DNA of 64,000 bases, from contig NZ_ABCK01000003.1 of the NCBI RefSeq assembly GCF_000170755.1, positions 248,001 through 312,000 on the forward strand. Reading direction: 5' to 3'. Of this stretch, positions 2,285 to 48,336 are shown one piece after another. The DNA is from Lentisphaera araneosa HTCC2155 (GTDB lineage Bacteria; Verrucomicrobiota; Lentisphaeria; Lentisphaerales; Lentisphaeraceae). The position numbers and the translations under genes are program-made. Numbering within the stretch: position 1 is the first letter of the stretch; each line of letters opens with the position of its first letter. The notes below the pieces were generated by a model. The model was not told where the DNA came from and made no database searches. It was given only the letters and a program-made list of their open reading frames with translations.

Positions 2285-2684
2285 TATACGCACTGCGTGC
2301 TGAGTTTACGCGCTTCGCGCTGAGTTTACGCACTGCGTGCTGAGTTTACGCGCTTCGCGCTGAGTTTACGCGCTTCGCGCTGAGTTTACGCGCTTCGCGC
2401 TGAGTTTACGCGCTTCGCGCTGAGTTTACGCACTGCGTGCTGAGTTTACGCGCTTCGCGCTGAGTTTACGCGCTTCGCGCTGAGTTTACGCGCTTCGCGC
2501 TGAGTTTACGCGCTTCGCGCTGAGTTTACGCGCTTCGCGCTGAGTTTACGCGCTTCGCGCTGAGTTTACGCACTAGGTACTGAGTTTACGCACTAGGTAC
2601 TGAGTTTACGCGCTAGGTGCTGAGTTTACGCGCTTCGTGCTGAGTTTACGCGCTAGGTGCTGAGAATACGCGCTTCGCGCTGAG
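2285..2684 (+). repeat. Palindromic 20-bp tandem array, 20 units
   Basis: Twenty exact-length units on the plus strand starting immediately after the S23 stop codon. Most are the GCGC-TTC-GCGC type; others are GCAC-TGC-GTGC, GCAC-TAG-GTAC and GCGC-TAG-GTGC. It ends at TGAGTTATTATTTTAGCT, where the orientation of the repeats flips. Confidence 0.95.
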
Positions 2685-2699
2685 TTATTATTTTAGCTT

Positions 2700-3144
2700 A
2701 GAAGCTTCGCTTCGTTCACTCAGCGAAGCGTCAACTCAGACCTCCGGTCGTCAACTCAGACCTCCGGTCGTCAACTGAGACCTCCGGTCGTCACCTCAGG
2801 GACTTGTTCCGTTAACTTAGAAGCTACGCTTCGTCAACTCAGAGGCTCTGCCTCGTAAACTCAGGAACTTGTTCCGTCCACTCAGCGAAGCGTCAACTCA
2901 GACCTCCGGTCGTCAACTCAGACCTCCGGTCGTCCACTCAGACCTCCGGTCGTCACCTCAGGAACTTGTTCCGTTAACTTAGAAGCTACGCTTCGTCAAC
3001 TCAGAGGCTCTGCCTCGTAAACTCAGGAACTTGTTCCGTTAACTTAGAAGCTACGCTTCGTCAACTCAGAGGCTCTGCCTCGTAAACTCAGGAACTTGTT
3101 CCGTCCACTCAGCGTAGCGTAAACTCAGGCCGAAGGCCGTCAAC
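2700..3144 (-). repeat. Opposed palindromic array with mixed stems
   Basis: The same repeat architecture read on the minus strand. Each unit has a T-T/G-x-A-C flank, a self-complementary core and TGAG or TAAG. The cores are of several sequences: GACC-GGA-GGTC, GAGGC-AGA-GCCTC, GGAAC-AA-GTTCC, GAAGC-GTA-GCTTC, GGCC-TTC-GGCC and short GC-TTC-GC. Higher-order blocks of three or four cores recur in the same order (about 2800-2900, 2950-3030 and 3030-3110). On the minus strand the series starts at the TAA stop of the 3145-4077 gene. Confidence 0.9.
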
Positions 3145-9398: not shown

Positions 9399-10080
9399 GT
9401 TACGACCTTTGGCCTAAGTTGACGGAACGGAGTTCCTGAGTTTACGCGCTTCGCGCTGAGTTTACGCGCTTCGCGCTGAGTTTGCGCACTTCGTGCTGAG
9501 AATACGCGCTTCGCGCTGAGTTTGCGCACTTCGTGCTGAGAATACGCGCTTCGTGCTGAGAATACGCACTTCGTGCTGAGAATACGCGCTTCGCGCTGAG
9601 TTGACGCGCTTCGTGCTGAGAATACGCACTTCGTGCTGAGAATACGCACTTCGTGCTGAGAATACGCACTTCGTGCTGAGAATACGCACTTCGTGCTGAG
9701 AATACGCACTTCGTGCTGAGAATACGCACTTCGTGCTGAGAATACGCACTTCGTGCTGAGAATACGCACTTCGTGCTGAGAATACGCGCTTCGCGCTGAG
9801 TTGACGCGCTTCGTGCTGAGAATACGCACTTCGTGCTGAGAATACGCACTTCGTGCTGAGTTGACGCGCTTCGCGCTGAGTTGACGCGCTTCGCGCTGAG
9901 TTGACGCGCTTCGCGCTGAGTTGACGCGCTTCGCGCTGAGTTGACGCGCTTTGCGCTGAGTTGACGCGCTTCGCGCTGAGTTGACGCGCTTTGCGCTGAG
10001 TTGACGCGCTTCGCGCTGAGTTGACGCGCTTCGCGCTGAGTTGACGCGCTTCGCGCTGAGTTGACGCGCTTCGCGCTGAG
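9399..10080 (+). repeat. Palindromic 20-bp tandem array, 32 regular units plus two variants
   Basis: Two variant units (core ACCTTTGGCC near 9403 and GGAAC-GGA-GTTCC near 9423) lead into 32 exact 20-bp units from 9441 to 10080. The left half is mainly AATACGCACTTCGTGCTGAG (GCAC/GTGC stem). The right half is TTGACGCGCTTCGCGCTGAG (GCGC/GCGC stem). Minus-strand open frames of 95-146 codons (Ser/Arg/Ala/Tyr/His-rich) cross it only because the 60-nt triple repeat lacks stops. I do not call them genes. Confidence 0.95.
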
Positions 10081-10113
10081 TTCTATTATTAATGTATAAA
10101 CTTTATTTTAGCT
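10081..10113. other. AT-rich junction between opposed arrays
   Basis: TTCTATTATTAATG followed by TTTATTTTAGCTC separates plus-oriented units on the left from minus-oriented units on the right. A very similar junction (TTATTATTTTAGCTT) lies at 2685-2700 in the other opposed pair. Confidence 0.6.
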
Positions 10114-13121: not shown

Positions 13122-13381
13122 TTAACGCGCTACGCGCTGAGTTGACGCGCTACGCGCTGAGTTGACGCGCTACGCGCTGAGTTGACGCGCTACGCGCTGA
13201 GTTGACGCGCTACGCGCTGAGTTGACGCACTACGCGCTGAGTTGACGCACTACGCGCTGAGTTGACGCACTACGCGCTGAGTTGACGCACTACGCGCTGA
13301 GTTGACGCACTACGCGCTGAGTTGACGCACTACGCGCTGAGTTGACGCACTACGCGCTGAGTTGACGCGCTACGCGCTGAG
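13122..13381 (+). repeat. Palindromic 20-bp tandem array, 13 units
   Basis: Thirteen units TTGACGCGCTACGCGCTGAG, six of the central ones and one later with GCAC in the left arm only. The change gives a G-T wobble on one strand and an A-C mismatch on the other. The array lies in the divergent region between two sigma factor genes, so unlike several others it does not follow a stop codon. Confidence 0.95.
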
Positions 13382-13498
13382 TTTATGGTGAAGTTTAGGA
13401 TTATTTTGAATTTTAAGCGAAAGGTTTTAGTTTTGGAGGTGAATAGTTATAGATTCGCTACGCTCCAATTATAAATTATGAATGTTAAATTCTTAATG
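13382..13498. other. Spacer between arrays
   Basis: AT-rich spacer, no gene. It contains a lone GATTCGCTACGCTCC palindromic word near 13452, similar to cores of the arrays. Confidence 0.4.
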
Positions 13499-13616: not shown

Positions 13617-14156
13617 GTGAGTCGAGATATGAAAGATCAGTTATTACGTGAAGCATTTAGGCATCATAATGCTTTGATTTCTTATGCTTACAGTATTCTG
13701 AGGGATTGGGATTTGGCGGAAGATGCCGTTCAAGAAGCGATGGTGACTGTGAATCAAAAAGCAGATGATTTTGATGCAACGAAAAAAGTTCTGCCTTGGG
13801 TTAAGGGCATCGTGCGTTTTAAGTGTTTGCAGATCATACGCTCTAGAAAGAAAGAAGCCTTTTTTAAAGATGAAGACTTACTAGATCTCGTCGAGCAACG
13901 TGTGACGCAGTTTATCGATGATCAATTTATTCAGCGCAGGGAGGCGCAGGGACGTGCCTTGAAGCACTGCCTAGCCAAGCTCAATCCGCAGTCACTTGAT
14001 TTAATTACAGCGAGTTATCGCGATAAGGAGAGTTCTGAATCATTAGCATCGCGTTATAAACGCAGTGTGAATGCCATTTATATAACGTTGACGCGAATTC
14101 GTCAGCAATTGCGTAAGTGCACACGCTCCTATGAAAATCTCCCGGAGGCCGAATAA
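13617..14156 (+). CDS. ECF-type sigma factor for the sulfatase locus
   Basis: 179 residues. Region 2 covers YAYSILRDWDLAEDAVQEAM and PWVKGIVRFKCLQIIR; region 4 covers LAKLNPQSLDLITASYRDKE and the HTH SLASRYKRSVNAIYITLTRI. It resembles the sigma-70 subfamily described from Rhodopirellula and Verrucomicrobium. The start is GTG 13617 or ATG 13629; neither has a clear Shine-Dalgarno, and the heptad repeat ends 6 nt upstream of the GTG. It overlaps the next gene by 1 nt (TAATG). The pair with a FecR-domain membrane protein, just before sulfatases, suggests it directs their transcription. Confidence 0.85.
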   Translation: MSRDMKDQLLREAFRHHNALISYAYSILRDWDLAEDAVQEAMVTVNQKADDFDATKKVLPWVKGIVRFKCLQIIRSRKKEAFFKDEDLLDLVEQRVTQFIDDQFIQRREAQGRALKHCLAKLNPQSLDLITASYRDKESSESLASRYKRSVNAIYITLTRIRQQLRKCTRSYENLPEAE

Positions 14157-15688
14157 TGGATGTGGAGCAATTAGCCGATTTATACTTGAGAGATGAGCTT
14201 AGTGAAGAACAGAAAAGTGAGCTTAAGATTCTCCTCGAAAATGATGAAGAGCAAAGCCGTGTTTTCACTGAATACCTCTATGAAACGGGTCAGTTACTCA
14301 ATGCGGCGGATCAGCTCGCGGAAGTGAGTCCTCAGCTCGATGCCTTGGGTGACATGATGGCTGAGCAAGAGAGTAAGCGTAATTGGTTTCTTCAATTTGG
14401 GGCCATGGCGGCGCTACTGATTGCGGCCTTCGCAATTTTTTCTATGATTCAAAAAGCGGAAAATGGTGATCTTGTCGTTGAACAGGAAATAATAGTACTC
14501 AATACACCTATTTTGGCTCGGGTGCATTCATCTGAAAATAAAGAGTTTAGTTCGGGTCAGTGGTTAGAGAAAGGGGAGTATGCTTTTAGCGAAAAATTGG
14601 CTTTGACTCTAGATTCTGGTGTTGAACTCAATATAGAAACGAGATCGCAGCTCGAATTGATAGGGCCCAATAAAGTACGTGTGATCAAAGGCAAAGTGCA
14701 TGCCTATGTGCCGCAGGTCGCTATCGGTTTCGTTTTAGAAGTGCCAGGTGGAGAAGTTCTAGACCTAGGAACTGAGTTTAAGGTGGCAGTTGATGAAAAG
14801 GGGACTTCTGATATAGAAGTAATGAGCGGCGAAGTTGAAGTTATTTCTTCGGAGACTTCTTATGAACACGTTGCACTGAGTCAAGGACAGAGCACTCGAC
14901 TCAACAGTGATGGCAGTCCGGCTAATGGACAAACTTTTCAGGTGACGCAATCCTTGCCCAATTTACTTGAACAACGTGACTTAAGTTATGTGCATTGGCC
15001 TTTTGATTCGGCGCAGTTGGGCTGGACTCCTACTTCTTCCGGAGGGGATTTTCACGACCGATTTAAGGCGGAACTCAAAGGCAAAGGGGGAGAAGATGGG
15101 CCGCAGTTTATTGAAGGTGCCTATGGTTATGCTTTGGATTTCGATGGCGAAAATGATTTTGCTAAGACAGATTTTAAAGGGATATCTGGTTCCCGCCCAC
15201 GTACGGTTTCCTTTTGGGTGAAAATCCCAGTTGATGCCAAGCAGAAAGAAAACTATTCCTTTGTTTCTTGGGGGAATAGTATGGAAACAGGTCAAAAATG
15301 GCAAATTGGCTGGAATGCATTACCTGAGAGTGGGACACTGGGTGCTATTCGAACAGAATTTAAAAATGGATATGTAATAGGTGAAACCGATCTGCGTGAT
15401 GGGCGTTGGCATCATATTGTCAGTCTTTTTATAGGTGGAGACGATGCAGACGTGGCCACACATGTTCGTCATTATGTAGATGGACGCCTGGAGGCTGTGA
15501 GCGGCTTTAAGCGAAAAAAGGTGTCGACCAACGTAGACTCAATTGATTCTAAGCCAGTGACCTTTGGGCGTAAAATGGATGGCAGCAAGTGGTACTTAAG
15601 AGCTAAGCTAGACGAACTTTATATCATCGACGCCGCCATTACTCCTGGTCAGGTTCGTCGCTTAATGGATAAAAATTCTCTCTATTAA
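14156..15688 (+). CDS. FecR/LamG domain membrane protein, probable anti-sigma regulator
   Basis: 510 residues. The N-terminal 75 residues are helical and acidic and should be cytoplasmic. One transmembrane helix lies at about 79-97 (LQFGAMAALLIAAFAIFSM). Next is a FecR-like region of about 120-245 (VEVPGGEVLDLGTEFKV-type motifs, SDIEVMSGEVEVIS). Then comes a LamG/concanavalin-like jelly roll at about 275-505 (YALDFDGENDFAKT, RTVSFWVKIP, DGRWHHIVSLF, LDELYIID). This domain order is common in Lentisphaerae, Verrucomicrobia and Planctomycetes next to sigma factors. Inference: the outer LamG part binds a glycan and the inner part controls the sigma factor encoded just upstream. There is no terminator before the first sulfatase 72 nt downstream. 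Confidence 0.8.
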   Translation: MDVEQLADLYLRDELSEEQKSELKILLENDEEQSRVFTEYLYETGQLLNAADQLAEVSPQLDALGDMMAEQESKRNWFLQFGAMAALLIAAFAIFSMIQKAENGDLVVEQEIIVLNTPILARVHSSENKEFSSGQWLEKGEYAFSEKLALTLDSGVELNIETRSQLELIGPNKVRVIKGKVHAYVPQVAIGFVLEVPGGEVLDLGTEFKVAVDEKGTSDIEVMSGEVEVISSETSYEHVALSQGQSTRLNSDGSPANGQTFQVTQSLPNLLEQRDLSYVHWPFDSAQLGWTPTSSGGDFHDRFKAELKGKGGEDGPQFIEGAYGYALDFDGENDFAKTDFKGISGSRPRTVSFWVKIPVDAKQKENYSFVSWGNSMETGQKWQIGWNALPESGTLGAIRTEFKNGYVIGETDLRDGRWHHIVSLFIGGDDADVATHVRHYVDGRLEAVSGFKRKKVSTNVDSIDSKPVTFGRKMDGSKWYLRAKLDELYIIDAAITPGQVRRLMDKNSLY

Positions 15689-15760
15689 TTTCATTTTTGG
15701 TGAAAGAACCCGCAAGTTTCCGTCAATAGCTTTTGACTGAAAAATAAATAAGGGTTTAAA

Positions 15761-17131
15761 ATGAAGTATATTTCTGTATTCGTCTTTCTTATGTTTGCGG
15801 CCAATAGCGCTGATAAACCAAATATTATTTTCATCATGTGTGATGATATGGGCTATGGTCAGCTGGGTTCATACGGCCAGAAAATGATCAAAACGCCTCG
15901 GCTTGATCAAATGGCCAAAGAAGGACTTCGTTTGACTGATTATTACGCAGGGACAGCAGTTTGTGCCCCCTCGCGCTGTTCATTGATGACAGGTCAACAT
16001 GTGGGGCACACTTATATTCGAGGGAATAAGGAATACCCCACTGGTCAGGAGCCTATTCCTGCAGAGACAATTACAGTGGCTGAAAAGATGAAAGAAGCTG
16101 GTTATGCTACTGCATTGATTGGCAAGTGGGGTTTAGGTTACCCAGGCAGTGAAGGTGAACCAAATAAACAGGGCTTTGATTACTTTTTTGGATATAATGA
16201 CCAAAAGCATGCTCATAATCATTTTCCGAAATTTCTTCTTAGAAATGAGGAAACCCTTACTCTTAAAAATAATTCCGGCAAAGAGATCGAGTACAGTCAA
16301 TATATGCTAACAGACGAAGCTAAAGGCTTCATTAAAAAGAATAAAGATAATCCGTTTTTTCTCTACTTGGCTTATGTGATTCCCCACTCAAGGCTTCAAA
16401 TTCCCGGAGATGATGAATGTTACCTTCAATACAAGGATGAATCCTGGCCTGAGAAACAGAAAAAGCATGCGGGTATGATTAGTCGCCTGGATAAAGATGT
16501 GGGATCAATTTTAGATCTGCTGAAAGAAATGAACTTAGCTGAAAATACACTGGTCGTTTTTACCAGTGATAATGGAGCTCATAGAGAAGGTGGAGCTCGA
16601 CCTGAATTTTTTAATGACAGCGGCCCCCTAAGTGGTATTAAACGCAGTATGTATGAAGGTGGGGTTCGTGTTCCATTTATTGCTCATTGGCCAGGTGTTA
16701 TTAAACCAGGACAAGTCAGTAATCATATCGGAGCTCACTGGGACTTGATGCCGACAGCCTGTGAGTTGGGTGGAGTTCAGCCACCAGAGGGAATTGATGG
16801 GATTAGCTATGTTCCCTTATTGAAAGGAAATATGGAAGAGCAGGAAAAACATGATTATCTGTACTTTGAGCTGCATTGGCCGACTAAGCGTGGCGTGAGA
16901 AAGGGCGATTGGGTTGCCTTGCAGTCGAAAACAAGCGCAATAGATCCGAATAAGGACACCATAAAATTATTTAATTTAAAAAATGACCTTGGACAGAAAA
17001 AAGATTTAGCGACGCAGTACCCGGAAAAGGTTGAGGAATTTAAAAAAATATTTTTAGAGGCGCATACTCCAGCTCCTTTATTCGAATTCGGTCAAGCTAA
17101 GCCTAAACGAAATAAAAAGGGTAAAAAATAA
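15761..17131 (+). CDS. Secreted arylsulfatase, CAPSR type
   Basis: 456 residues with a signal peptide (MKYISVFVFLMFAANSA). Formylglycine-dependent sulfatase: metal-binding Asp28-Asp29 in IMCDDMGYG, formylglycine motif CAPSR at 68-72, GKWGLG near 121-126, His209 in PHSR, and Asp270-Asn271 in FTSDNGAH. It ends in a lysine-rich tail (PKRNKKGKK). It hydrolyses sulfate esters outside the cytoplasm, probably from an algal or animal polysaccharide; the substrate cannot be read from the sequence. First of five sulfatases in a row; its TAATG stop/start overlaps the next gene. Confidence 0.9.
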   Translation: MKYISVFVFLMFAANSADKPNIIFIMCDDMGYGQLGSYGQKMIKTPRLDQMAKEGLRLTDYYAGTAVCAPSRCSLMTGQHVGHTYIRGNKEYPTGQEPIPAETITVAEKMKEAGYATALIGKWGLGYPGSEGEPNKQGFDYFFGYNDQKHAHNHFPKFLLRNEETLTLKNNSGKEIEYSQYMLTDEAKGFIKKNKDNPFFLYLAYVIPHSRLQIPGDDECYLQYKDESWPEKQKKHAGMISRLDKDVGSILDLLKEMNLAENTLVVFTSDNGAHREGGARPEFFNDSGPLSGIKRSMYEGGVRVPFIAHWPGVIKPGQVSNHIGAHWDLMPTACELGGVQPPEGIDGISYVPLLKGNMEEQEKHDYLYFELHWPTKRGVRKGDWVALQSKTSAIDPNKDTIKLFNLKNDLGQKKDLATQYPEKVEEFKKIFLEAHTPAPLFEFGQAKPKRNKKGKK

Positions 17132-18549
17132 TGAAGATATTATTTACGGTATTAACACTCATCTCGATGCCTTTACTGGCTCAAATGAAACCCAACATCA
17201 TTTATATTTTATGCGATGATCTCGGTTATGGTGAGGTTGGTTATAATGGTCAGAAAATGATTCAGACTCCCGAGCTGGATAAACTCGCTTCCAAAGGCAT
17301 GCGCTTTACGGATCATTATTGTGGGAACGCAGTTTGCGCACCATCGCGAGCTTCCCTAATTACAGGGAAACATCCTGGGCACGCTTTTATTCGTGCAAAT
17401 AGTCCTGGTTACCCCGATGGGCAAACACCCATTCCAGCTGATTCAGAAACGCTAGGTAAGCTCATGAAGCGTGCGGGTTACGCAACGGCTTGTATCGGTA
17501 AATGGGGACTAGGTGGTTTTCACAATGCGGGCAATCCCCATAAGCAGGGTTTTGATCATTTTTACGGTTATACAGATCAGCGTAAGGCGCACAATTATTA
17601 TCCTGAATACCTTTGGCGTAACGGCGAAAAAGAAATGCTCAATAATAAGAATGGCGAAGAAAATGATTACAGTCACGACCTGATGACAGTGGATGCATTG
17701 AAGTATATTGAAGAGAAGAAAGACCAGCCTTTTTTCCTTTACCTCGCTTACCTCATTCCCCACGTGAAATATCAGGTGCCAGATTTGGCGCAGTACAAAG
17801 ACAAAGATTGGCCCAAAGAAATGAAAATTCACGCCGCGATGACTTCGCGTATGGATCGCGATATTGGCACAATTGCACGTCGTTTAGAAGAACTGGGCAT
17901 TGCCGACAATACCTTAATCATGTTTAACAGTGATAATGGGGCTCATGGTAAATCGAATTCTGAGAAGTTTTTTAATACCTCAGGTGATCTAAAGGGTTTA
18001 AAAAGAAGTATGTATGATGGAGGGGTGCGTTCACCTATGATCGCTTATTGGCCAGGTACCATTCAGGCGGGAAGTGTGAGTGATCATATCTCGGCGTTTT
18101 GGGATATGATGCCAACCTTTTCGGAGCTCACCGGTGAGCCTTTTAAAGGAGAGACAGATGGGATTTCCATGTTGCCAACATTATTGGGAAAAGATTCTGA
18201 ACAGAAGCAGCATAAATACCTTTACTGGGAGCTTTATGAGAGTAATAAGCCGAATTGTGCGATTCGCTTTGGGAAATGGAAGGGCGTTGTGCTCGATAGA
18301 CGCAAAGGGCTCAATATAGAGCTCTATGATATGAGTGGAGATCAAAGCGAGTCAAAAAATCTAGCTGCACAATACCCTGAAGTTGTGGATGAAATCCGCA
18401 AAATGATGGTCGAAGCCCACGTCAAAAGTCCCTATTGGGATAAAGACTTTAAACCACTTTATAATGCCAAAGCAGCATGTGAAGATACTGGTGTTAAACC
18501 CATGCCTAGACAAAAATCTAAAAAGAAAAAAAGTTCAAAGAAAAAGTAA
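17131..18549 (+). CDS. Secreted arylsulfatase, CAPSR type
   Basis: 472 residues with a signal peptide (MKILFTVLTLISMPLLA). Metal ligands Asp29-Asp30 (ILCDDLGYG), formylglycine motif CAPSR at 69-73, GKWGLGG, PHVKYQ, and NSDNGAHG. It is clearly a paralogue of the preceding sulfatase over its whole length, suggesting tandem duplication followed by divergence. The C terminus is KSKKKKSSKKK. It overlaps the upstream gene by 1 nt. Confidence 0.9.
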   Translation: MKILFTVLTLISMPLLAQMKPNIIYILCDDLGYGEVGYNGQKMIQTPELDKLASKGMRFTDHYCGNAVCAPSRASLITGKHPGHAFIRANSPGYPDGQTPIPADSETLGKLMKRAGYATACIGKWGLGGFHNAGNPHKQGFDHFYGYTDQRKAHNYYPEYLWRNGEKEMLNNKNGEENDYSHDLMTVDALKYIEEKKDQPFFLYLAYLIPHVKYQVPDLAQYKDKDWPKEMKIHAAMTSRMDRDIGTIARRLEELGIADNTLIMFNSDNGAHGKSNSEKFFNTSGDLKGLKRSMYDGGVRSPMIAYWPGTIQAGSVSDHISAFWDMMPTFSELTGEPFKGETDGISMLPTLLGKDSEQKQHKYLYWELYESNKPNCAIRFGKWKGVVLDRRKGLNIELYDMSGDQSESKNLAAQYPEVVDEIRKMMVEAHVKSPYWDKDFKPLYNAKAACEDTGVKPMPRQKSKKKKSSKKK

Positions 18550-18609
18550 TTCTGCTGTTAAGATCGAGATTTGATAAATGAGTAAAATTTATAACTTTAG
18601 GAAAAAAAT

Positions 18610-20091
18610 ATGATTATAAAAATTCAATGTGCTCTTGTGTTCTTCTTGGCGCTAGCTGGTTTCGCAGCAGAGAAGCCCCACATTATTCTCATCAACATAG
18701 ATGATCTCGGTTGGACTGACCTCAGCTATCAGGGGAGTAAATATTATGAGAGTCCAAATATTGATGCCCTTGCTAAGAGCGGGATGATTTTTGATCAGGG
18801 TTATGCCGCCGCAGCCAATTGTGCTCCTAGTCGTGCTTCTTTGATTAGTGGCCAGCAGAGCCCACGTACAGAAGTTTATACTGTGGGTAATCCTGCCCGA
18901 GGAGCTTCTAACAAGCGTAAATTAATTCCGAGTCCTAATATTGACTTTGTCGATGCGGATAACTTTACCATCGCAGATGCCATGAACAGTGCGGGCTATC
19001 TCACCGCTACACTCGGTAAGTACCATGTGGCCAAGGATCCTTTGACTCACGGTTGGAAGATTAATGTCGGTGGTCGCGAGTTCGGAGGCCCCTATAATGG
19101 CGGTTATCATAGTCCTTATGAATACCCTAATTTAAAAGAGACAGAGAAGGGGCGTTACCTTTGTGATCATTTAACTGATGAGGCGATTGGGATTTTTAAA
19201 GAACATGGCGCTCAGCAGCCGATCTTTATGTATTTTCCTTATTACACGATTCATGCACCGATTCAGGGGCACCCCAAGTTTGAGCCTAAATATAAGGCTA
19301 AAGCAAAAACTAAGGGCCATTTTAATCCTAAATATGCGGCAATGATTGAAGCTCTGGACCATAATGTTGGGCGCTTGGTCGCAGCTTTGGAAGAACAAGG
19401 TTTACGTGAGAAAACTTTGATTATGTTTACCTCTGATAATGGGGGGCACATGAAGTTCAGCCGCCAGGAGCCTCTTCGAGCTGGTAAGGGGAGTTACTAT
19501 GAGGGCGGGATTCGCGTACCATTTTTTGCTTCATGGCCGGGTGTGATTGAAGCAGGAAGTCGCAGTCAGGTTCCTGTCACTGGTTTAGATTTCTATCCTA
19601 CTGTCTGTGAGTTGGCTGGTGTCGAGCTGCCTGATGATAAGGTCGTCGATGGCAAGAGTTTTTTACCGCTGCTTAAGAGTGAAGTTGATGAGGATTTGAA
19701 GAACCGAGCACTTTATTGGCACTTTCCTATTTATCTCCAGGCCTACCTGAAGCCAAACGAGAAACCCGAGAGCCGCGACCCACTTTTCCGAACTCGTCCG
19801 GGCTCGGTTATTCGACACGGCAAGTGGAAATTGCATCACTACTTTGAGGATGATGGTGTGGAACTGTACGATATTAACAGTGATCGATCTGAAAAAAATG
19901 ACTTGAGTTCTGAGTACCCTGAGGTAGTTAGCAAACTTCGCAATAAACTAGATTCTTGGAGAAATGGAATCGGAGCTTTTATTCCCACTGAATTAAATCC
20001 AGATTTTGGGAAACAGCAGTCAGACTCAAAGCCTAAGAAGATTAAAAAGAATAAGAAGAAAAAAAGTTCTGTAAAGAAAACGACGATTTAG
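18610..20091 (+). CDS. Secreted sulfatase, CAPSR type
   Basis: 493 residues, signal peptide to about Ala20. Asp31-Asp32 (NIDDLGWTD), formylglycine motif CAPSR at 71-75, GKYHVA, IHAPIQGHPKF, and TSDNGGH followed by GKGSYYEGGIRVPFF. It differs from the first two in substrate-loop regions, so it probably acts on another linkage. The C terminus is very basic (KKIKKNKKKKSSVKKTTI). AGGAAAA about 6 nt before the ATG is the ribosome site. A 60-nt gap separates it from the upstream gene. Confidence 0.9.
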   Translation: MIIKIQCALVFFLALAGFAAEKPHIILINIDDLGWTDLSYQGSKYYESPNIDALAKSGMIFDQGYAAAANCAPSRASLISGQQSPRTEVYTVGNPARGASNKRKLIPSPNIDFVDADNFTIADAMNSAGYLTATLGKYHVAKDPLTHGWKINVGGREFGGPYNGGYHSPYEYPNLKETEKGRYLCDHLTDEAIGIFKEHGAQQPIFMYFPYYTIHAPIQGHPKFEPKYKAKAKTKGHFNPKYAAMIEALDHNVGRLVAALEEQGLREKTLIMFTSDNGGHMKFSRQEPLRAGKGSYYEGGIRVPFFASWPGVIEAGSRSQVPVTGLDFYPTVCELAGVELPDDKVVDGKSFLPLLKSEVDEDLKNRALYWHFPIYLQAYLKPNEKPESRDPLFRTRPGSVIRHGKWKLHHYFEDDGVELYDINSDRSEKNDLSSEYPEVVSKLRNKLDSWRNGIGAFIPTELNPDFGKQQSDSKPKKIKKNKKKKSSVKKTTI

Positions 20092-20147
20092 CAGTCACTT
20101 CAAAAGATTTTTAGTGTTGTTTAATAAAAACTATTTAAAGGAAATTT

Positions 20148-22010
20148 ATGCATAAGTTACTATTATTATTTTTTGCGCTGCTAGGCGTGCAGACCTGGGG
20201 CTCAGATAGACCCAACATTCTTTGGCTTACGAGTGAAGATAATAACGTGACTCATATAGGCTGCTATGGTAATGAACATGCGGTGACGCCTAATATTGAT
20301 AAATTGGCTTCCGAAGGTTTTCGCTACACTCATTGTTATTCAAATACGGCGGTTTGTTCGGCAACTCGTACTTCTTGGATTACGGGTATGAATGCGGTTT
20401 CTATGGCGGGGCACAATCATCGTAGCAGCGTCAGTGTACCTGAAGACAAAGTTATTTTTTACCCGCAGATGCTTCGCAAAGCGGGTTACTACGCGGTGAA
20501 TACGGGCAAGACAGATTATAATACCCGGAAAGATCCACGTTTAAGAACCATGTGGAGTACGAGCAAGTTAAATTGGAAAAGTTTGAAAGAAAATCAGCCC
20601 TTTTTTCAAGTGATTAATCATGTAGATTCTCACGAGAGTCGTGCTATGGGGAAAGACTATAACTATCCTCAGGACAAGGTGAAAATCCCTCCTTATCATC
20701 CCGACACCAAAGAAGTGCGTGCCAATTATGGCCACTATTACAAAAATGTCACCAAGATGGACGCTGCGATTGGCAAAGCTTTAGCTGAACTCGAAAAGCA
20801 GGGCTTAGCGGAAAACACAATTGTTATCTACAATTCAGATCATGGTGGGCCACTTCCCCGCGGCAAACGCTACATGTATAATTCTGGAACGCATTGCCCC
20901 ATGATCATACGCATCCCCGAGAAATATAAAGACCTTTGGCCTGCAAATAAGCCAGGGTCCACAGTGGATCGTTTAGTGAGTTTCATTGACATGCCAAGCA
21001 CTTGGCTCTCTTTGGCGGGGGCTAAAATTCCAAGCAACTATCAAGGAGAAATCTTCTTAGGAAAAAATCAAAGCAAAGAACCCGAGTTTGTTTTTCACTT
21101 TCGTGGCCGCAATGATGGAAAAATAGAGAATGCACGAGCTATTCGCGACAAACAATTTCTTTATGTTCGCAATTACATCCCTTATGTAGCTCGTGGTCAG
21201 CATCTGCCATACCAATGGAAAATCCCCATGCAACGCGATTGGGAGAATGATTTCAAAAATGGTACACTCGATGCAGATCAAAGCCGTTTCTTTAAGCTTA
21301 AGCCTAAGGATGAGCTCTATGATGTGAGTAAAGATTCTTTTTGTTTGAATAACCTCGCCCAAAGTCCTGAATATAAGCAAGTCGTCGAAACAATGAAGAA
21401 GAAGTTGGACACTCGCCAACGTCAATACACTGATGCCGGACTTATTTCTGAATCAGAACTTAATCAACGTGCGGCTCAAAATGCCATTACGCCTTACGAA
21501 GTGATTCATAATCAAGAGCTCTACGATCTCGATGCTTATATGCAGGCTGCGGCGATCGCTCTAGAACAGAAAACGGAGTATTACTCGCAGCTTCAAGGCT
21601 TACTCAAGAGTAAAGATAGCGGCGTTCGCCACTGGGCCGTATGCGGTTTGTTCATGTTGAAAGATAAAGTTGATGTTCTTTCCGATGTAGAGCCTTTGCT
21701 CACAGATTCGAGTGACACGGTTCGAGCTATGGCTGCCTGGGTAGTGATAGAAATTAATCAGGCTCCTGCAGCATATAAGGTTTTTGAGGACTTACTGCAG
21801 TCAAATACTTATGCGGAATTAGAAGTTTTAAATTATATTGATTGGATGGGTAAAGAAAATAATACTGCCCTTATCCCCTTTGTGAGAAAATATAAAATTA
21901 AGGACTCCAAATTGAAACCCTTTCACGATTATCTGGTGAAGGGGATGTCAGCTCTAGGTCCAAAACAAAAGATCAAAAAACAAAAAAAGAACAAAGGTAA
22001 GAAATCATGA
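20148..22010 (+). CDS. Secreted sulfatase with C-terminal HEAT-like region, CSATR type
   Basis: 620 residues, longer than its neighbours. Signal peptide MHKLLLLFFALLGVQTWG. Metal site SEDN at 29-32 (Glu-Asp in place of Asp-Asp), formylglycine motif CSATR at 70-74 with Ala for Pro, and NSDHGGP. The SEDN form is typical of the heparan N-sulfatase-like branch, so an N-sulfo or related substrate is possible. From about residue 480 to 595 a helical HEAT-like extension follows (LLKSKDSGVRHWAVCGLFML, DSSDTVRAMAAWVVIE). The tail is lysine-rich (KIKKQKKNKGKKS). AGGAAAT precedes the start, and the stop overlaps the next gene by 4 nt. Confidence 0.88.
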   Translation: MHKLLLLFFALLGVQTWGSDRPNILWLTSEDNNVTHIGCYGNEHAVTPNIDKLASEGFRYTHCYSNTAVCSATRTSWITGMNAVSMAGHNHRSSVSVPEDKVIFYPQMLRKAGYYAVNTGKTDYNTRKDPRLRTMWSTSKLNWKSLKENQPFFQVINHVDSHESRAMGKDYNYPQDKVKIPPYHPDTKEVRANYGHYYKNVTKMDAAIGKALAELEKQGLAENTIVIYNSDHGGPLPRGKRYMYNSGTHCPMIIRIPEKYKDLWPANKPGSTVDRLVSFIDMPSTWLSLAGAKIPSNYQGEIFLGKNQSKEPEFVFHFRGRNDGKIENARAIRDKQFLYVRNYIPYVARGQHLPYQWKIPMQRDWENDFKNGTLDADQSRFFKLKPKDELYDVSKDSFCLNNLAQSPEYKQVVETMKKKLDTRQRQYTDAGLISESELNQRAAQNAITPYEVIHNQELYDLDAYMQAAAIALEQKTEYYSQLQGLLKSKDSGVRHWAVCGLFMLKDKVDVLSDVEPLLTDSSDTVRAMAAWVVIEINQAPAAYKVFEDLLQSNTYAELEVLNYIDWMGKENNTALIPFVRKYKIKDSKLKPFHDYLVKGMSALGPKQKIKKQKKNKGKKS

Positions 22011-23542
22011 ATTTATTCAGATCTACGGGAGTCCTACTCCTTTCGCTCTGCGCGAGTTTAACGGCGGCGGAAAAGCCGAATATCGTTTTTATCTATGGCG
22101 ATGACGTCGGTTTTGGTGATGTGGGCGTTTATGGTTCAGAAAAGATCCCAACGCCGCATATCGATAAGCTCGCCAAGGGCGGGATCCAATTCACCGACGG
22201 TCACTGTTCAGCTGCGACCTGTTCGCCGTCGCGTTTTGCCATGCTTACAGGTGTTCACGCCTTTCGCCATGGAGTGAATATCCTTCCTCCGAATGCACCG
22301 CTTAGTATTCCAACAGATATCCCTACGCTTCCCAAAATGCTCCGTGAAAATGGTTATGTAACGGGTGTCGTGGGTAAATGGCATTTAGGTATTGGTGCTA
22401 AGGGTGTTGAAACTGACTGGAATGGCGATGTGAAGCCTGGTCCTTTAGAGATTGGTTTTGATCAAATGTTTTTATTGCCATCAACAAATGATCGTGTTCC
22501 CTGTGTTTACTTAGATGGCCATCGCGTTTACAACTATGATCCTAATGATCCTATTTATGTTGGTAGAACTTTGGAATCAGTCAACAAGCCAGGGTCAACT
22601 CAATATGGTGATGCAAGAAAGAATCCTGAATTGATGACCTACTACCCCAGTACACATGGCCATAATAATTCTGTGATCAATGGTATTGGTCGTATCGGTT
22701 TTATGTCGGGCGGTGAAAAAGCTCTGTGGAATGACGAAACAATGGCCGATGTCTTTGTGGAAAAAGCTTCTGAATTCATCAAAGAAAAAGCTAAGGGCGA
22801 TAAGCCTTTTTTCCTTTACTTTGCCTCGCAAGATATTCATGTGCCTCGTGCACCGCACCCACGTTTTCAAGGTGCAACCAAATTAGGTAAGCGCGGTGAT
22901 GCCATGGTTCAATTCGATTGGTGCACTGGCGCGCTCATGAAAGCGCTTGATGAAGCGGGTGTGGCTGATAATACCATCGTCTTCTTCTCAAGTGACAATG
23001 GACCAGTTTATGATGATGGTTATGCCGATGGTTCAGTGACAAAAACGTCCTCAAAAGAAACGGATCATGGTCATGACGGTTCCGGTATCTACCGCGGTGG
23101 CAAGTATCAGATCTACGAAGGTGGAACACGTGTGCCTTTCATTATCAGCTGGCCGGCAAAAATTAAGCCAGCTGTTTCTGATGCGATGGTGAACCAAGTG
23201 GATCTCTACACTTCATTTGCAAAATTAGTTGGTCATGACCTACGCAAAGAAGAAGCGATTGATAGTCGCGATACGCTCGCAGCTTTCCTTGGTGAAGAAT
23301 CACAGGGCTTGGATTACATGTTCAATGAGGCAAGAAAAACGGATCATGCCGTTCGCCAGGGTAAATGGAAGTTTATCTCTAAAGGTGGTAAGAAAAAGAA
23401 AAAATCTAACGACGAACTTTATGACCTAGAGGCCGACCCAAGTGAGCAAAAGAATGTCGTTAAAGAATTTCCTGAAGTTGCGGGAGATATGAAAAAGCTT
23501 CTCGAGCAAGTTCGCAAGTCATCTGGATTGCGTTTCGACTAA
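22007..23542 (+). CDS. Secreted arylsulfatase A-like enzyme, CSPSR type
   Basis: 511 residues with signal peptide (RSTGVLLLSLCASLTAA). Asp32-Asp33 in YGDDVGFGD, formylglycine motif CSPSR at 72-76, GKWHLGIG, SQDIHVPRAPHPRF, and SSDNGP, followed by YRGGKYQIYEGGTRVPF. It looks like the arylsulfatase A/N-acetylgalactosamine-6-sulfatase branch. Unlike the other four its lysine cluster (GGKKKKKS) is internal, shortly before the LYDLEADPSE motif. ATGA overlap with the upstream gene; a strong terminator follows. Confidence 0.9.
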   Translation: MNLFRSTGVLLLSLCASLTAAEKPNIVFIYGDDVGFGDVGVYGSEKIPTPHIDKLAKGGIQFTDGHCSAATCSPSRFAMLTGVHAFRHGVNILPPNAPLSIPTDIPTLPKMLRENGYVTGVVGKWHLGIGAKGVETDWNGDVKPGPLEIGFDQMFLLPSTNDRVPCVYLDGHRVYNYDPNDPIYVGRTLESVNKPGSTQYGDARKNPELMTYYPSTHGHNNSVINGIGRIGFMSGGEKALWNDETMADVFVEKASEFIKEKAKGDKPFFLYFASQDIHVPRAPHPRFQGATKLGKRGDAMVQFDWCTGALMKALDEAGVADNTIVFFSSDNGPVYDDGYADGSVTKTSSKETDHGHDGSGIYRGGKYQIYEGGTRVPFIISWPAKIKPAVSDAMVNQVDLYTSFAKLVGHDLRKEEAIDSRDTLAAFLGEESQGLDYMFNEARKTDHAVRQGKWKFISKGGKKKKKSNDELYDLEADPSEQKNVVKEFPEVAGDMKKLLEQVRKSSGLRFD

Positions 23543-32628: not shown

Positions 32629-32993
<365 letters not shown>

Positions 32994-42781: not shown

Positions 42782-43375
42782 ATGATTTATCTCTTGCCAG
42801 GAATGGGTGCCAATCGAGAAATGTATAAGGACTGGGAACAGCCTGGTAGATACACTTTTTTAGATTGGCCTCGATTTCACAATGAGGCAAGTTTGAGTGA
42901 AGTTGCGAAGAGAATTATCGAAGAGAATGACATACGATCTTCTGATCTGGTGGGAGGCTCCTCTCTCGGCGGAATTATTGCCATTGAAATTGATAAGTTA
43001 TTAAATAATCCGAAAGTGATTCTTTTAGGCAGCGCAATTGATCTATCTGAAATTAATAGTCTCTTGCTCAAATTGAGTGCTCTCAGTGATTACGCTCCAG
43101 TAAAATTAATTCAGTTGTTGACGGGGAAATACGACAATAGCTTATTGAATATGTTTTCTGAGAGCGATCCAAAATTTATTAAAGCTATGTGTAAACTCAT
43201 TGCCTCTTGGGAGGGCTATTTAAGTCTACCTGATAAACTCATTAGAATTCACGGTACTCAGGATCTCGTTATTAACTGTCCTCAAGTGGGCTGTGAAAAA
43301 TTGAGTGCGGGTCATTTAATTGCCATGAGTCACCCTAAGCAATGTCAGGAGCTTATAAAAAAGCAGCTTGGCTAG
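42782..43375 (+). CDS. Alpha/beta hydrolase-like protein
   Basis: 197 residues. Nucleophile elbow GGSSLGG, oxyanion region LLPGMGANREMY, IHGTQDLVI for the acid and AGHLIAMSHP for the His give a complete catalytic triad. Small cytoplasmic serine hydrolase or thioesterase; substrate unknown. 20 nt after the DUF349 gene, and convergent with the degenerate sulfatase gene with only 4 nt between stops. Confidence 0.75.
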   Translation: MIYLLPGMGANREMYKDWEQPGRYTFLDWPRFHNEASLSEVAKRIIEENDIRSSDLVGGSSLGGIIAIEIDKLLNNPKVILLGSAIDLSEINSLLLKLSALSDYAPVKLIQLLTGKYDNSLLNMFSESDPKFIKAMCKLIASWEGYLSLPDKLIRIHGTQDLVINCPQVGCEKLSAGHLIAMSHPKQCQELIKKQLG

Positions 43376-43379
43376 TTTC

Positions 43380-44786
43380 TTATTCCGCTGCAGGAGCTTC
43401 GACTTTAGGGTCGAAGAGCGAGGGGGCATTTGGATGTACTGTGTGTCGGGCATCGGCAGACTGGAGTAAAGCTTTGGCTTCTTCTGCTTTTTCTTCGGCA
43501 ATATTTTTTTCTTCTTTTGGATCAGTACTTAGATCAAAAAGTTGTAGGGAAGAGGGGGTTAGCAAAGATTGTTTTTGAATGAGTTTCAAAGGACCTTTGC
43601 GAATAGCGCGATAGCTTTGGTCTTCCCAATAAAGTTCATTTTTGGGAAGGAATACGGGCTTGTTTTCATTTTTTGCAATGGAGAGAATGCTATTGAAAAT
43701 ACTAGCTTGAGAACTGAGGTCTTCATTCTTACTTTTTGGAGTCAAAATTTTTGGCCAGTGCGCTAAAAAAGGGACAAGTAAACCACCTTCGTAGTACGTG
43801 CCTCTCATGCCCCGTTGTTCTTGAAGAGAATTAAAAAAGTTGATGTCGCGTCCACCGGCATCAGAAAGAGCGTTGGGGGAAGTAAAAATAAAGAGTGTTT
43901 GCTCAAAGATTTCTTGGCTTTTGAGCAAGGTAACAATTTCACCTAAGTGACGGTCGATTTCTTGCATCAGTGCGAGTTGATTGGCGCGAGGTGCGTACAG
44001 GGGCAAAAAGCCTTTCTGGCCTGAGTAGGGAATGTCGGGGATCTTGCCGAGGAAGTTTTTGTAGTCATCTTCCTTAGCATTGAGTCCGGGCTGAAGCCCT
44101 GTATGGGCATAGTGTAGGAAGAACTTGTTCTTGTCTTCTAGTTTTTTCTGGATGAAATTGAGGGTGGTCTCGTGTAAGAGTTCGGGCGCATAAGTTTGGC
44201 CTCTAAACGCCTTATAAGAACTGGGATTATCAATATCGGTGCCAGGAGGGAAAGTGTAGTGGGCGGGGATGTCGGGGTTTTCGAGCTCAATGAGTTCATT
44301 GGAAATCAGCACAGATTTTGGGAAGCGGTGATCTTGTGAGGGACTCTGACTCAATTGGCCACTAAAAAATTCGAAGCCCATTTTAACAGGTGTATAATTC
44401 TCGTTAGCGCCATAGGGCCAAGTGCCGACAAAATTAGTTTGATAACCCAGTTTTTTGAGCTCGCCAGCTAGAGTGAGGGTCGCTTCGGGAAGTGTAGGGA
44501 GAGTTTTGCTTTTATGTCGTAGGGCAAGTTGGCCGCTATCCTGACCTGTGTACATGGAGAGGAAAGCCGTTTGGCGTCGCGCTGAAGTGGAATAGAAAGA
44601 TGTGTAACGAGCAGACTGATCTTTAAGTTCAGAGAGGTTCGGGAGAAGAATGCGATCTTGGTCGAGATCACCAATTCCGAAATTTTCGACGGTAAATAAG
44701 ATGATCGCTCGGGGTTCTTGCCCCCGAGCGGATTGGAAAAAACCAAAACAAAAGATTGCGAAGAACGCAAAAGTGATTTTTTGCAT
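43380..44786 (-). CDS. Sulfatase-like secreted protein with lost active site
   Basis: 468 residues from MQKITFAFFAIFCFGFFQSA, a signal peptide. The sulfatase scaffold is clear: SMYTGQ after the usual formylglycine site, FVGTWPYG for GKWGLG, YYEGGLLVPFLAHWPKI, and LFDLSTDPKEEKN. However, the catalytic positions are gone: Asp-Asp is Glu34-Asn35, the formylglycine Cys aligns to Arg71 and its motif Arg to Phe, PH is TG, and SDN is SPN. It should not hydrolyse sulfate but could bind a sulfated or phosphorylated ligand. The open frame reaches 44828, but M at 44786 begins the signal peptide. Last gene of the frr-cysS-purD unit, 14 nt after purD. Confidence 0.85.
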   Translation of the reverse strand: MQKITFAFFAIFCFGFFQSARGQEPRAIILFTVENFGIGDLDQDRILLPNLSELKDQSARYTSFYSTSARRQTAFLSMYTGQDSGQLALRHKSKTLPTLPEATLTLAGELKKLGYQTNFVGTWPYGANENYTPVKMGFEFFSGQLSQSPSQDHRFPKSVLISNELIELENPDIPAHYTFPPGTDIDNPSSYKAFRGQTYAPELLHETTLNFIQKKLEDKNKFFLHYAHTGLQPGLNAKEDDYKNFLGKIPDIPYSGQKGFLPLYAPRANQLALMQEIDRHLGEIVTLLKSQEIFEQTLFIFTSPNALSDAGGRDINFFNSLQEQRGMRGTYYEGGLLVPFLAHWPKILTPKSKNEDLSSQASIFNSILSIAKNENKPVFLPKNELYWEDQSYRAIRKGPLKLIQKQSLLTPSSLQLFDLSTDPKEEKNIAEEKAEEAKALLQSADARHTVHPNAPSLFDPKVEAPAAE

Positions 44787-44800
44787 TGGTTTATATCCTT

Positions 44801-46063
44801 TTACTTGAGGCGTTCGAGTGCGCGCCAAGCAATATCATTGCGGTAGAAAGCGTCTTTCCAACTAATTTTCTTTGTCGCTTCATAAGCTTTTTCACGAGCT
44901 GTGACAATATCAGCAGCACGAGCTGTGATACCGAGAACACGACCGCCAGTATTGACGAGCTTGCCATCTTTTAAAGATGTACCAGCGTGGAAAACCATAG
45001 CGCCGTTTTCTTCAGCGGCTTCGATACCAGTGATTTCGTGACCTTTCTCATAAGAAGCAGGGTAACCACCAGAAGCCATTACCACACAAAGTGCTTGATC
45101 GTCAGAGAATTTCATATCAACTTCAGCGAGTTTGCCTTGAGCTGTTTTGAGTAGGGCGTCAGCGAGGCTGCTTTCCATGCGGATAAGCACAGATTGTGTT
45201 TCGGGATCGCCGAAACGTACATTGAACTCGAGAACCTTAGGGCCATCTTCGTCAATCATGAGACCGATGAAAACGATGCCACGGAAGTCGAGGCCTTCTG
45301 CTTGAACACCTTTGAGGAATTTCGTGAGGACTTCGTCTTTGATGAACTGTTCCATTTCGGCATCAACAACTGGTGCCGGAGAATAAGTACCCATGCCGCC
45401 AGTGTTTGGACCTTTGTCGCCTTCGTAAGCACGCTTGTGGTCTTGTGCAGAAGCCACAAATTTAATCGTTTCACCATCGAGGAAAGCAAAGATTGAAGCT
45501 TCTTCACCGACGAGACATTCTTCAATAACAACGCGAGCACCAGCAGAGCCAAATGCGCCATCGAAGCAATCTTTCACAGCCGCAACAGCTTGTTCCATTG
45601 TGTCGGCAACCGTCACGCCTTTACCAGCAGCAAGGCCATCAGCTTTAATCACAATCGGAGCGCCTTGCGCTTCGAGGTAAGTAAGTGCGTCGGCTTCGTT
45701 GTCGAAAGTGCCGCTAGCTGCCGTTGGGATCTCGTACTTATCCATAAAAATATTGGCGTAAGTTTTTGAACCTTCGAGTTGAGCTGCGTCTTTGTCTGGA
45801 CCAAAAACGTCAAGACCTTTGTCGCGGAAAATATTGACGATGCCTTCGCAGAGGGGTACCTCGGGGCCGACCATTGTGAGGGCGATATCATTTTCTTTTG
45901 CGAAGTTCGCAAGTTCGTTGTGATCTGAAATGTCGATGCATTCGATGTCTTTCATGCCTGGATTGCCAGGTGCGCAGTAGACTTTAGTGACTTCTGGGTC
46001 CTGAGTCATTTTCCATGCAATAGCGTGTTCGCGACCACCGCCGCCAATTACTAAAACTTTCAT
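44801..46063 (-). CDS. purD: Phosphoribosylamine-glycine ligase
   Basis: 420 residues, ATP-grasp enzyme for the second step of purine synthesis. MKVLVIGGGGREHAIAWK at the N terminus, IKADGLAAGKGV, PNTGGMGTYSPAP and EFNVRFGDPETQ are all intact. It begins 3 nt after cysS in the same operon; linking purine and cysteinyl-tRNA genes has no known logic. Confidence 0.96.
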   Translation of the reverse strand: MKVLVIGGGGREHAIAWKMTQDPEVTKVYCAPGNPGMKDIECIDISDHNELANFAKENDIALTMVGPEVPLCEGIVNIFRDKGLDVFGPDKDAAQLEGSKTYANIFMDKYEIPTAASGTFDNEADALTYLEAQGAPIVIKADGLAAGKGVTVADTMEQAVAAVKDCFDGAFGSAGARVVIEECLVGEEASIFAFLDGETIKFVASAQDHKRAYEGDKGPNTGGMGTYSPAPVVDAEMEQFIKDEVLTKFLKGVQAEGLDFRGIVFIGLMIDEDGPKVLEFNVRFGDPETQSVLIRMESSLADALLKTAQGKLAEVDMKFSDDQALCVVMASGGYPASYEKGHEITGIEAAEENGAMVFHAGTSLKDGKLVNTGGRVLGITARAADIVTAREKAYEATKKISWKDAFYRNDIAWRALERLK

Positions 46064-46066: not shown

Positions 46067-47485
46067 TTATCCTTTTTTAACTTTTGGCCCAGCGGGAGTG
46101 TCTTCGATGACCCATCCTTGAGCTTTTAACTGATCGCGTATCTCGTCGGAGCGGCCCCAGTTTTTGTCGGCGCGTGCTTGTTGGCGTTCTTCTGCGAGAG
46201 CTAAAATCTCGGCGGGAACATCATTGTCAAGGTCAAATTTCATGACATCGAGAATACGGTTGAAATATTTGAGGGTGTTGAGTAAAGCCTCTTGATTCAC
46301 AGTTTCATTAGAATCGAGGATGCGGTTGCCTTCGCGGATGAAGTCAAACATTTTACCGAGTGCACCTGAGATATTGAGGTCGTCATTGAGTGAATCGAGG
46401 AATTCATCTTGTGCTTTAGCACAGAGTTCCGAGAGTTCAGAGCTGAGTTCACCATCGGCTTTGTCCTTGATGCGCTCGATAAAGTTCTGCAAACGGGTGA
46501 TTGCGGCTCTCGCATTGCTTAAGCTCTCAGATTTCTCAGCTCCAGTTTCCACAACAAAGTTTAAACCAGCGCGGTAATGAGTGGCTAAAAGCATATAACG
46601 AACTTCTGCTCCAGCCCAACCTTTTTCCGTGAGTTGAGCGAGGGTGTAGAAGTTGCCGAGAGATTTTGACATTTTTGCATTGTTGATACGCAAATGTGCA
46701 CAGTGCATCCAGTAATTCACATATTTGCAACCATTAGCAGCTTCACTCTGAGCGATTTCATCTTCGTGGTGAGGGAACATATTGTCAACGCCACCCGTGT
46801 GCATGTCGAAGTGATCGCCGAGAGTTGCTTTGGCCATGGCCGAGCATTCAATGTGCCAGCCTGGACGGCCTTCGCCCCAAGGGCTATCCCATTTGACGTC
46901 ACCATCAGCTTTATCCCAAGCTTTCCAGAGAGCGAAGTCAGAGACGGACTCTTTTTCGTACTCATCTGTTTTGACTCGAGTACCAGACATTTGATTGTCA
47001 CGGTCAATTTTTGCGAGGCAGCCATAGTGTTCGAACTTATCGATTGAGTAGTAGACGCATTTGTCATCAGCTAAGTAAGCGTAGCCCTTGTCGACGAGAG
47101 TCTGGATCATATCAATCATCTGAGGGATGTGATCCGTAGCCGCGGGGTAGTGTTCCGCAGGTTCGACGTTGAGTTTTTCTAAGTCTTCGAAAAAAGCTTT
47201 TTTGTAGATCGCAGTGAAGTCATTAAGACTCATGCCAGCTTTCTGAGAGTCGCGAATCGTTTTGTCATCGACGTCAGTTAAGTTCATGACTTGAGTGACT
47301 TTATAATCGTTGAGCTTGAGAACTCGACGCAAAAGGTCTTCGAAAACATAGGCACGGAAATTGCCAATATGAGCATAGTTGTAAACAGTAGGGCCACATG
47401 TGTAGAGCCTAGCTTCACCCTCATTGATGGGAGTGAATGGCTCGGCTTCACGAGACATGGTGTTATGGAAGGAAAGTTTTCTCAT
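46067..47485 (-). CDS. cysS: Cysteinyl-tRNA synthetase
   Basis: 472 residues, class I synthetase. Zinc and HIGH region LYTCGPTVYNYAHIGNFR, WHIECSAM, HHEDEIAQSE, and KMSKS as AKMSKSLGNF. The frame opens at TTG 47494, but ATG 47485 (MRKLSFHN) is the natural start. 14 nt after frr and 3 nt before purD. Confidence 0.96.
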   Translation of the reverse strand: MRKLSFHNTMSREAEPFTPINEGEARLYTCGPTVYNYAHIGNFRAYVFEDLLRRVLKLNDYKVTQVMNLTDVDDKTIRDSQKAGMSLNDFTAIYKKAFFEDLEKLNVEPAEHYPAATDHIPQMIDMIQTLVDKGYAYLADDKCVYYSIDKFEHYGCLAKIDRDNQMSGTRVKTDEYEKESVSDFALWKAWDKADGDVKWDSPWGEGRPGWHIECSAMAKATLGDHFDMHTGGVDNMFPHHEDEIAQSEAANGCKYVNYWMHCAHLRINNAKMSKSLGNFYTLAQLTEKGWAGAEVRYMLLATHYRAGLNFVVETGAEKSESLSNARAAITRLQNFIERIKDKADGELSSELSELCAKAQDEFLDSLNDDLNISGALGKMFDFIREGNRILDSNETVNQEALLNTLKYFNRILDVMKFDLDNDVPAEILALAEERQQARADKNWGRSDEIRDQLKAQGWVIEDTPAGPKVKKG

Positions 47486-47499
47486 TATTTTCAAATGAC

Positions 47500-48066
47500 T
47501 TAAACGGTCATTAAATCCTTTTCTTTGGCAGCGCTCAATGAAGCGATTTCATCGATCTTTTTGTTAGTGAGATCTTGGATGTCAGTTACGAGACCCTTTT
47601 GGTGGTCTTCAGAAAGCTCGTGGTCCTTGAGAGCTTTTTTGAGGTAATCATTACCCTCGCGACGGATATTACGGATGTTGATCTTGTGTTCTTCACCTTT
47701 ACCCTTGAGGTCTTTAACCATGTCTTTACGACGATCTTCAGTAAGTTCAGGAATAGGGAGGCGAATGAGCTGGCCGTCATTCATTGGAGTGATACCGATG
47801 TTCGCCATCATCAGAGCTTTTTCGATATCGGGAAGAATTGTTGCATCGTAGGGCTGGATAGCGATTGTACGAGCATCAGGAGTACTGATGCCGGCTGTTT
47901 CTTTAAGGCGCATTTTTGTGCCGTAAGCATCAACCATGATATCTTGAACGAGGGCGGGAGTCGCTTTACCCGTGCTATAAGCATCAATTTGAGATTGGAA
48001 GTGGGCAATTGCCTTATCCATTTTTTCAGTGATTTCGTCAACAACTGTGTCTACTGTATAAGCCAT
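47500..48066 (-). CDS. frr: Ribosome recycling factor
   Basis: 188 residues from MAYTVDTVVDEITEKMDKA. Splits post-termination ribosomes with EF-G. RTIAIQPYDATILPDIEKAL, IRLPIPELTEDRRKDMVK and NIRNIRREGNDYLKK are signatures. The frame extends 17 codons upstream to 48117 without family features; AAGG lies 9 nt before ATG 48066. First gene of its operon. Confidence 0.96.
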   Translation of the reverse strand: MAYTVDTVVDEITEKMDKAIAHFQSQIDAYSTGKATPALVQDIMVDAYGTKMRLKETAGISTPDARTIAIQPYDATILPDIEKALMMANIGITPMNDGQLIRLPIPELTEDRRKDMVKDLKGKGEEHKINIRNIRREGNDYLKKALKDHELSEDHQKGLVTDIQDLTNKKIDEIASLSAAKEKDLMTV

Positions 48067-48336
48067 GATGTGTACCTTGGATTTAATTAATAATAAAAGC
48101 ACAGAAATAGACTGCAAAAGTGCTTATTTTCAACAAGAAAATCTAGAGAGCGGGTCATAGTTTTTCTTCTTGAGAAGAAATCTATGGCGAGCTGATTGAA
48201 ACTGTGCTCATATAAAATGAGAAGAAAGTACCTTATTTATCAATAAAAGTGCTTCTGCGTGGATCTTCTGTGAGTTTAAAAAGACTTTTGATCATGCATT
48301 TTATGAAGATGTTTAATTCGAGGAAGTAAAGGGTTT

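Follow-up and report, generated by a model that had tools for sequence, protein, structure and literature searches.

The Locus and Its Genes

The window considered here, namely the whole stretch of 64,000 nucleotides analyzed from the genome of Lentisphaera araneosa (6.02 Mb in 81 contigs), contains an open frame for a sulfatase homologue in which nearly all key active-site residues are replaced, hereafter called pseudo-sulfatase. The frame lies behind three genes of a presumed housekeeping operon on the reverse strand, and was compared among three Lentisphaera genomes, those of L. araneosa, L. marina and a third species taken as L. profundi; these are the three named species of the genus at NCBI. 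The features of the locus are as follows, orthologue identities being those in the two congeneric genomes.

47500..48117, reverse strand: frr, at the head of the presumed operon (ORF; orthologues 93% and 90% identical, syntenic)
46067..47494, reverse strand: cysS, upstream of the pseudo-sulfatase (ORF; orthologues 94% and 88% identical, syntenic)
44801..46063, reverse strand: purD, upstream of the pseudo-sulfatase (ORF; orthologues 96% and 92% identical, syntenic)
44787..44800, reverse strand: spacer of 14 nt between purD and the pseudo-sulfatase (sequence of three species)
43380..44786, reverse strand: pseudo-sulfatase, predicted to be exported (open frame, PF00884 E=6e-22, AlphaFold model)
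44721..44786, reverse strand: predicted Sec signal peptide MQKITFAFFAIFCFGFFQSARG (approximately residues 1-22, judged by eye)

The frame runs from an ATG at 44786 to a stop at 43380 and encodes 468 amino acids with no internal stops. The Pfam profile Sulfatase (PF00884) matches residues 28-371; for comparison, the intact sulfatase encoded nearby at 15761 scores 4.3e-59. The N-terminal segment shows, by eye, a Lys, a hydrophobic core and A-R-G ahead of Q23, with no lipobox. The preliminary description of a full-length, predicted exported sulfatase homologue with an intact frame is thus borne out, its coordinates being exact. A sequencing or assembly artefact was rejected as the source of this gene because three independent genomes show the same pseudo-sulfatase, and its presence in all of them likewise excludes chance.

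The gene at 44801..46063 is named purD after its presumed product. The order frr-cysS-purD-pseudosulfatase, in which the last place had been assigned to the pseudo-sulfatase, is real, with intergenic gaps of 5, 3 and 14 nt, and from this gene spacing we infer co-transcription of the four genes. The spacer behind purD measures 14 nt in all three Lentisphaera genomes, and the ribosome-binding sequence AAAAGGA adjoins the purD stop in L. araneosa and L. marina, a weaker AATAAGG being present in the third species. Gene order is conserved more widely among the three genomes, encompassing an SNF2-type helicase, a DUF349 protein, an alpha/beta hydrolase, the pseudo-sulfatase, purD, cysS, frr, tal and beyond. 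The convergent alpha/beta-hydrolase-like gene that adjoins the pseudo-sulfatase (window 42782-43375) diverges fast, its frame measuring 197, 179 and 135 aa across the three species (relatives at L035:7184-7723 and L036:7298-7705). In the sister genera checked, purD has neither the pseudo-sulfatase downstream nor cysS-frr upstream; placement behind purD is therefore specific to Lentisphaera among these genomes. A promoter and terminator scan of the locus gave no excess over shuffled sequences, and so no claim is drawn from it.

Replacement of the Active Site

Active-site residues were read from an alignment of the pseudo-sulfatase with 37 intact-looking sulfatases, which located the following former sites, all on the reverse strand.

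44682..44687: E34-N35, in place of the metal-binding Asp pair (E-N in each of the three species)
44562..44576: R71-Q-T-A-F75, in place of the formylglycine motif CxPSR (Arg for Cys in each of the three species)
44415..44423: T122-W-P124, in place of GKW with its active-site Lys (T and P in each of the three species)
44091..44096: L231-Q232, in place of the PH motif (His position occupied by Glu in the third species)
43872..43877: P304-N305, in place of Asp-Asn of the SDN motif (Leu in L. marina at P304; Asn kept)
43803..43805: R328, in place of the GLK active-site Lys (R in each of the three species)

Within the former formylglycine motif the alignment equates Cys with R71, Pro with T73 and Arg with F75. 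The pseudo-sulfatase has the alkaline-phosphatase-type fold of S1 sulfatases, as indicated by the PF00884 match and by a structural match to an S1 enzyme at TM 0.80, and carries R-Q-T-A-F where active S1 enzymes have the formylglycine motif C/S-x-P/A-S/x-R. Its calcium site and catalytic Lys and His residues are changed too (DD to EN, Asp to Pro or Leu, Lys to Thr, His to Gln or Glu, Lys to Arg). Nine of the 13 active-site positions checked (E34, N35, R71, A74, T122, P124, L231, N305 and R328) hold the same residue in the three species, and the other four differ; most of the altered residues are thus fixed in relatives, a check that the preliminary description had proposed. Its wording of a uniformly erased active site is sound in that nearly all key residues are replaced, but slightly too strong, because N305 is the ancestral Asn of the SDN motif and because a few other, otherwise intact-looking sulfatases of L. 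araneosa, within the genome survey presented below, likewise have Glu for the first Asp.

Origin and Fold

The closest solved structures, by sequence as well as by fold, are BT1622 and BT1636, two S1_20 galactose-3-sulfatases of Bacteroides thetaiotaomicron. BT1622 (PDB 7ANA/7ANB) matches the pseudo-sulfatase with E=2.8e-35 and BT1636 (PDB 7AN1/7OQD) with E=3e-23 and TM 0.76. The AlphaFold model, computed from a nine-sequence alignment, has a pTM of 0.83 and a mean pLDDT of 77, and 7anb is its best PDB match (S1_20, TM 0.80); as modeled, the protein retains the sulfatase fold. The two-domain sulfatase architecture is common to the pseudo-sulfatase and both S1_20 enzymes, and the stretch PYxGQxGxxP is found in it and in BT1622; unlike these enzymes, it has the catalytic and calcium residues replaced, with the exception of the SDN Asn. 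Judged by these top sequence and fold matches, the ancestor of the protein would be an S1 exo-sulfatase that most resembled subfamily S1_20.

No orthologue was found outside Lentisphaera in the sister genera of the family, in a class sample of 119 genomes or in a phylum sample of 388 genomes. Matches outside the genus are approximately 30% identical, and every one examined at residue level is an intact sulfatase. The viral contigs searched contain no orthologue, and every match in the plasmid search lies below 60% identity.

Enzymes of the alkaline phosphatase superfamily are catalytically promiscuous, and a fold that appears intact in the model, together with metal contacts that could persist through E34 and N305, might suit a formylglycine-free chemistry based on different residues, for instance that of another ester hydrolase. 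However, Arg occupies the nucleophile position in all three species, and Lys, His and the SDN Asp are lost, so that we consider a continued enzymatic function improbable.

Conservation and Selection within the Genus

The orthologues of the pseudo-sulfatase in the two congeneric genomes are 76% and 71% identical to it. All three have 468 codons and align without gaps or frameshifts, 299 of the 468 positions being invariant and residues 245-280 nearly so throughout. Rates were estimated by the NG86 and maximum likelihood (ML) methods, since YN00 failed in many pairs with saturated dS, and one ML value (for the KWG gene) was left out as a plain fitting failure. The pseudo-sulfatase has a dN of 0.15-0.21 and a dS above 2, and because this dS is saturated the resulting omega of approximately 0.02-0.07 is only rough. 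It is nevertheless far below 1, and the dN/dS check suggested earlier therefore indicates strong purifying selection. The corresponding dN values are 0.11-0.14 for an intact sulfatase trio and 0.02-0.07 for the operon neighbours; in terms of identity, the pseudo-sulfatase evolves faster than these neighbours (76% vs. 93-96%).

In a protein tree of 50 sulfatases the three pseudo-sulfatases form one clade with a support of 100/100, whose stem measures 2.91 changes per site against 0.04-0.27 for the crown branches; since no branch in the tree is longer than this stem, the exact attachment of the clade is unsure. We read the long stem and short crown as a single burst of rapid change, after which constraint resumed. 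By the time the three Lentisphaera species split, almost the entire catalytic site had been replaced, and purifying selection has since held the gene, without indels, directly behind purD. The combination of lost catalytic residues and purifying selection, which is expected of a pseudoenzyme, is present in the sequences of all three species.

The faster evolution of the gene with respect to both its operon neighbours and intact sulfatases might suggest a pseudogene in slow decay. Yet the three species show no stop, frameshift or indel, dN is at most one tenth of dS and the active-site replacements are mostly fixed, which makes decay very improbable; frameshifts and relaxed selection in relatives, named beforehand as evidence against retention, are not seen in the genus. 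A different view is that the protein has no binding role and keeps its foldability because misfolding or jamming of an exported protein is costly when the housekeeping operon that encodes it is expressed at a high level. Its position 14 nt behind purD, its pace relative to the neighbours and the lack of an evident functional pocket agree with such a view, but had the exported protein been useless, one or more of the three species would be expected to have lost it through a stop codon, and neither the gap-free alignment nor the near invariance of residues 245-280 fits it well. We regard it as unlikely.

The distribution of invariant sites differs between the two kinds of protein. The invariant fraction in the former active-site blocks is 0.56-0.77 in pseudo-sulfatases versus 0.87-1.00 in the intact trio, and outside these blocks it is 0.64 versus 0.72. 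In 11 active relatives, 72 sites are invariant; the pseudo-sulfatase retains the residue at 40 of them and differs at 32, and 56 do not vary among the pseudo-sulfatases. These alignments indicate that constraint has shifted relative to intact sulfatases.

Possible Function

The sequence comparison gives good support to a retained non-catalytic role. All three species of the genus keep the protein intact within one housekeeping cluster, so that it has probably been co-opted for a task other than catalysis. Our overall explanation, to which we assign a probability of about 0.7, is that of a genus-restricted, exported pseudoenzyme derived from an S1 sulfatase, maintained by purifying selection for non-hydrolytic binding in a housekeeping envelope role. 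The operon context suggests growth-linked constitutive rather than glycan-induced expression. The cell would produce the protein constitutively as it grows, from the transcript that carries frr, cysS and purD, and export it by the Sec pathway via its predicted signal peptide. The protein would adopt a sulfatase fold that lacks both formylglycine and catalytic calcium, and would act through binding instead of hydrolysis. Most likely it has a housekeeping role in the envelope, as a scaffold, a sensor or the binding subunit for a protein partner or for a polymer of the wall or surface.

The closest functional precedent, by analogy, is the pseudo-hydrolase domain of YejM/PbgA (LapC), a periplasmic sulfatase-like fold in which canonical catalytic residues are reported absent and the role is regulatory, not hydrolytic (PMC13125744), even if another paper reports YejM as a metalloenzyme (PMC7576196). 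Both proteins present a sulfatase-like fold for the envelope without the canonical catalytic residues, and the envelope role of the pseudo-sulfatase is most likely comparable in kind. YejM differs by its lipid A motif and by a transmembrane domain at the N-terminus, whereas nothing beyond a signal peptide is seen by eye in the pseudo-sulfatase. It therefore lacks the N-terminal transmembrane plus periplasmic sulfatase-like arrangement of the YejM/PbgA family, and its similarity to the family model NF038282 is marginal (21.6 bits against a cut-off of 825).

The preliminary description had named ligand binding, with glycans in view, as an example of a retained non-enzymatic role. Retention stands, given the absence of frameshifts and indels, purifying selection and fixed replacements; glycan binding finds no support in any of the computations. 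S1_20 sulfatases read galactose (O4) through a conserved His (PMC10154612). In the segment aligned with this residue the three Lentisphaera species have no His in common, and MAFFT places Gln151 of all three opposite a His that 11 active relatives share without exception, with an alignment uncertainty of 1-2 residues. The galactose-reading His is thus probably lost, and the sulfate subsite no longer exists. The old pocket shows no more than average conservation (9 of 13 vs. 299 of 468 sites invariant), so that nothing points to a ligand there. These features speak against the binding of sulfated galactose in the former active site. The data agree just as well with a structural or regulatory role, or with one that involves a protein partner, as with ligand binding. 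One possible but doubtful variant is that two arginines invariant in the three species, Arg71 in place of the nucleophile and Arg328 in place of the Lys, turn the former sulfate pocket into a metal-free anion site that could hold a sulfated or phosphorylated polymer uncut, the protein serving as a growth-coupled envelope sensor or lectin that is expressed alongside the genes of translation and purine synthesis.

Lentisphaera has hundreds of sulfatases, and sulfatase counts serve to infer diet; at least one homologue now appears to be fixed for another purpose in a housekeeping operon. With its long stem, short crown and many intact paralogues for comparison, it offers a clean natural conversion of enzyme to pseudoenzyme, and a test case for the repeated recruitment of the sulfatase fold to envelope binding or sensing, as in YejM. 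The word 'pseudosulfatase' is absent from the literature searched.

Other Sulfatases and Features of the Window

The survey of L. araneosa sulfatases covered 94 stretches plus the window, equivalent to 1.88 Mb or approximately 31% of the genome and picked for sulfatase density; frames of at least 350 aa were counted and those flagged as cut were left out (n=244). The formylglycine Cys is kept in 240 of these 244 frames, and its loss is therefore not ordinary drift in a large family. The remaining four comprise two frames that begin at stretch edges and therefore are without an N-terminus, the pseudo-sulfatase behind purD and a second pseudo-sulfatase only weakly similar to it (contig C1:298609-300327, L152:13609-15327, reverse strand). 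The latter consists of a zinc ribbon (CPSC..CPYC), an acidic linker, a transmembrane segment and then the sulfatase domain, in which DD has become EG and CxPxR has become E-A-S-S-H. Its orthologue in the third Lentisphaera species (61%) is also without the formylglycine motif, none was found in L. marina and a more diverged relative is present in genome G003. It sits behind genes presumably of DUF1552/DUF1592 type.

Four further sulfatases of L. araneosa have CxPxL for CxPxR, with other key residues intact (L058:8513-14309 and L089:15791-17074). They agree with the SulfAtlas remark that Lentisphaerae and Planctomycetes have putatively inactive S1 sulfatases in which the Arg of CxPxR is changed to Leu or Ile (PMC5066984). 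Those sequences resemble the pseudo-sulfatase in being putatively inactive S1 proteins from the same phylum, but are described as losing the Arg, whereas the pseudo-sulfatase is without nearly all key residues.

Elsewhere in the window, ECF sigma factor-like and FecR-like genes are followed by five sulfatases (13617-23542), all five with the Cys of the formylglycine motif. A 20-bp tandem unit (AGTTTACGCGCTTCGCGCTG and variants) forms intergenic arrays of up to 32 copies at 1666-3104, 9436-10082 and 13125-13383, and a 9-bp unit, ATAGGACTT, is repeated 18 times at 32684-32847, downstream of a UmuC-like polymerase gene.
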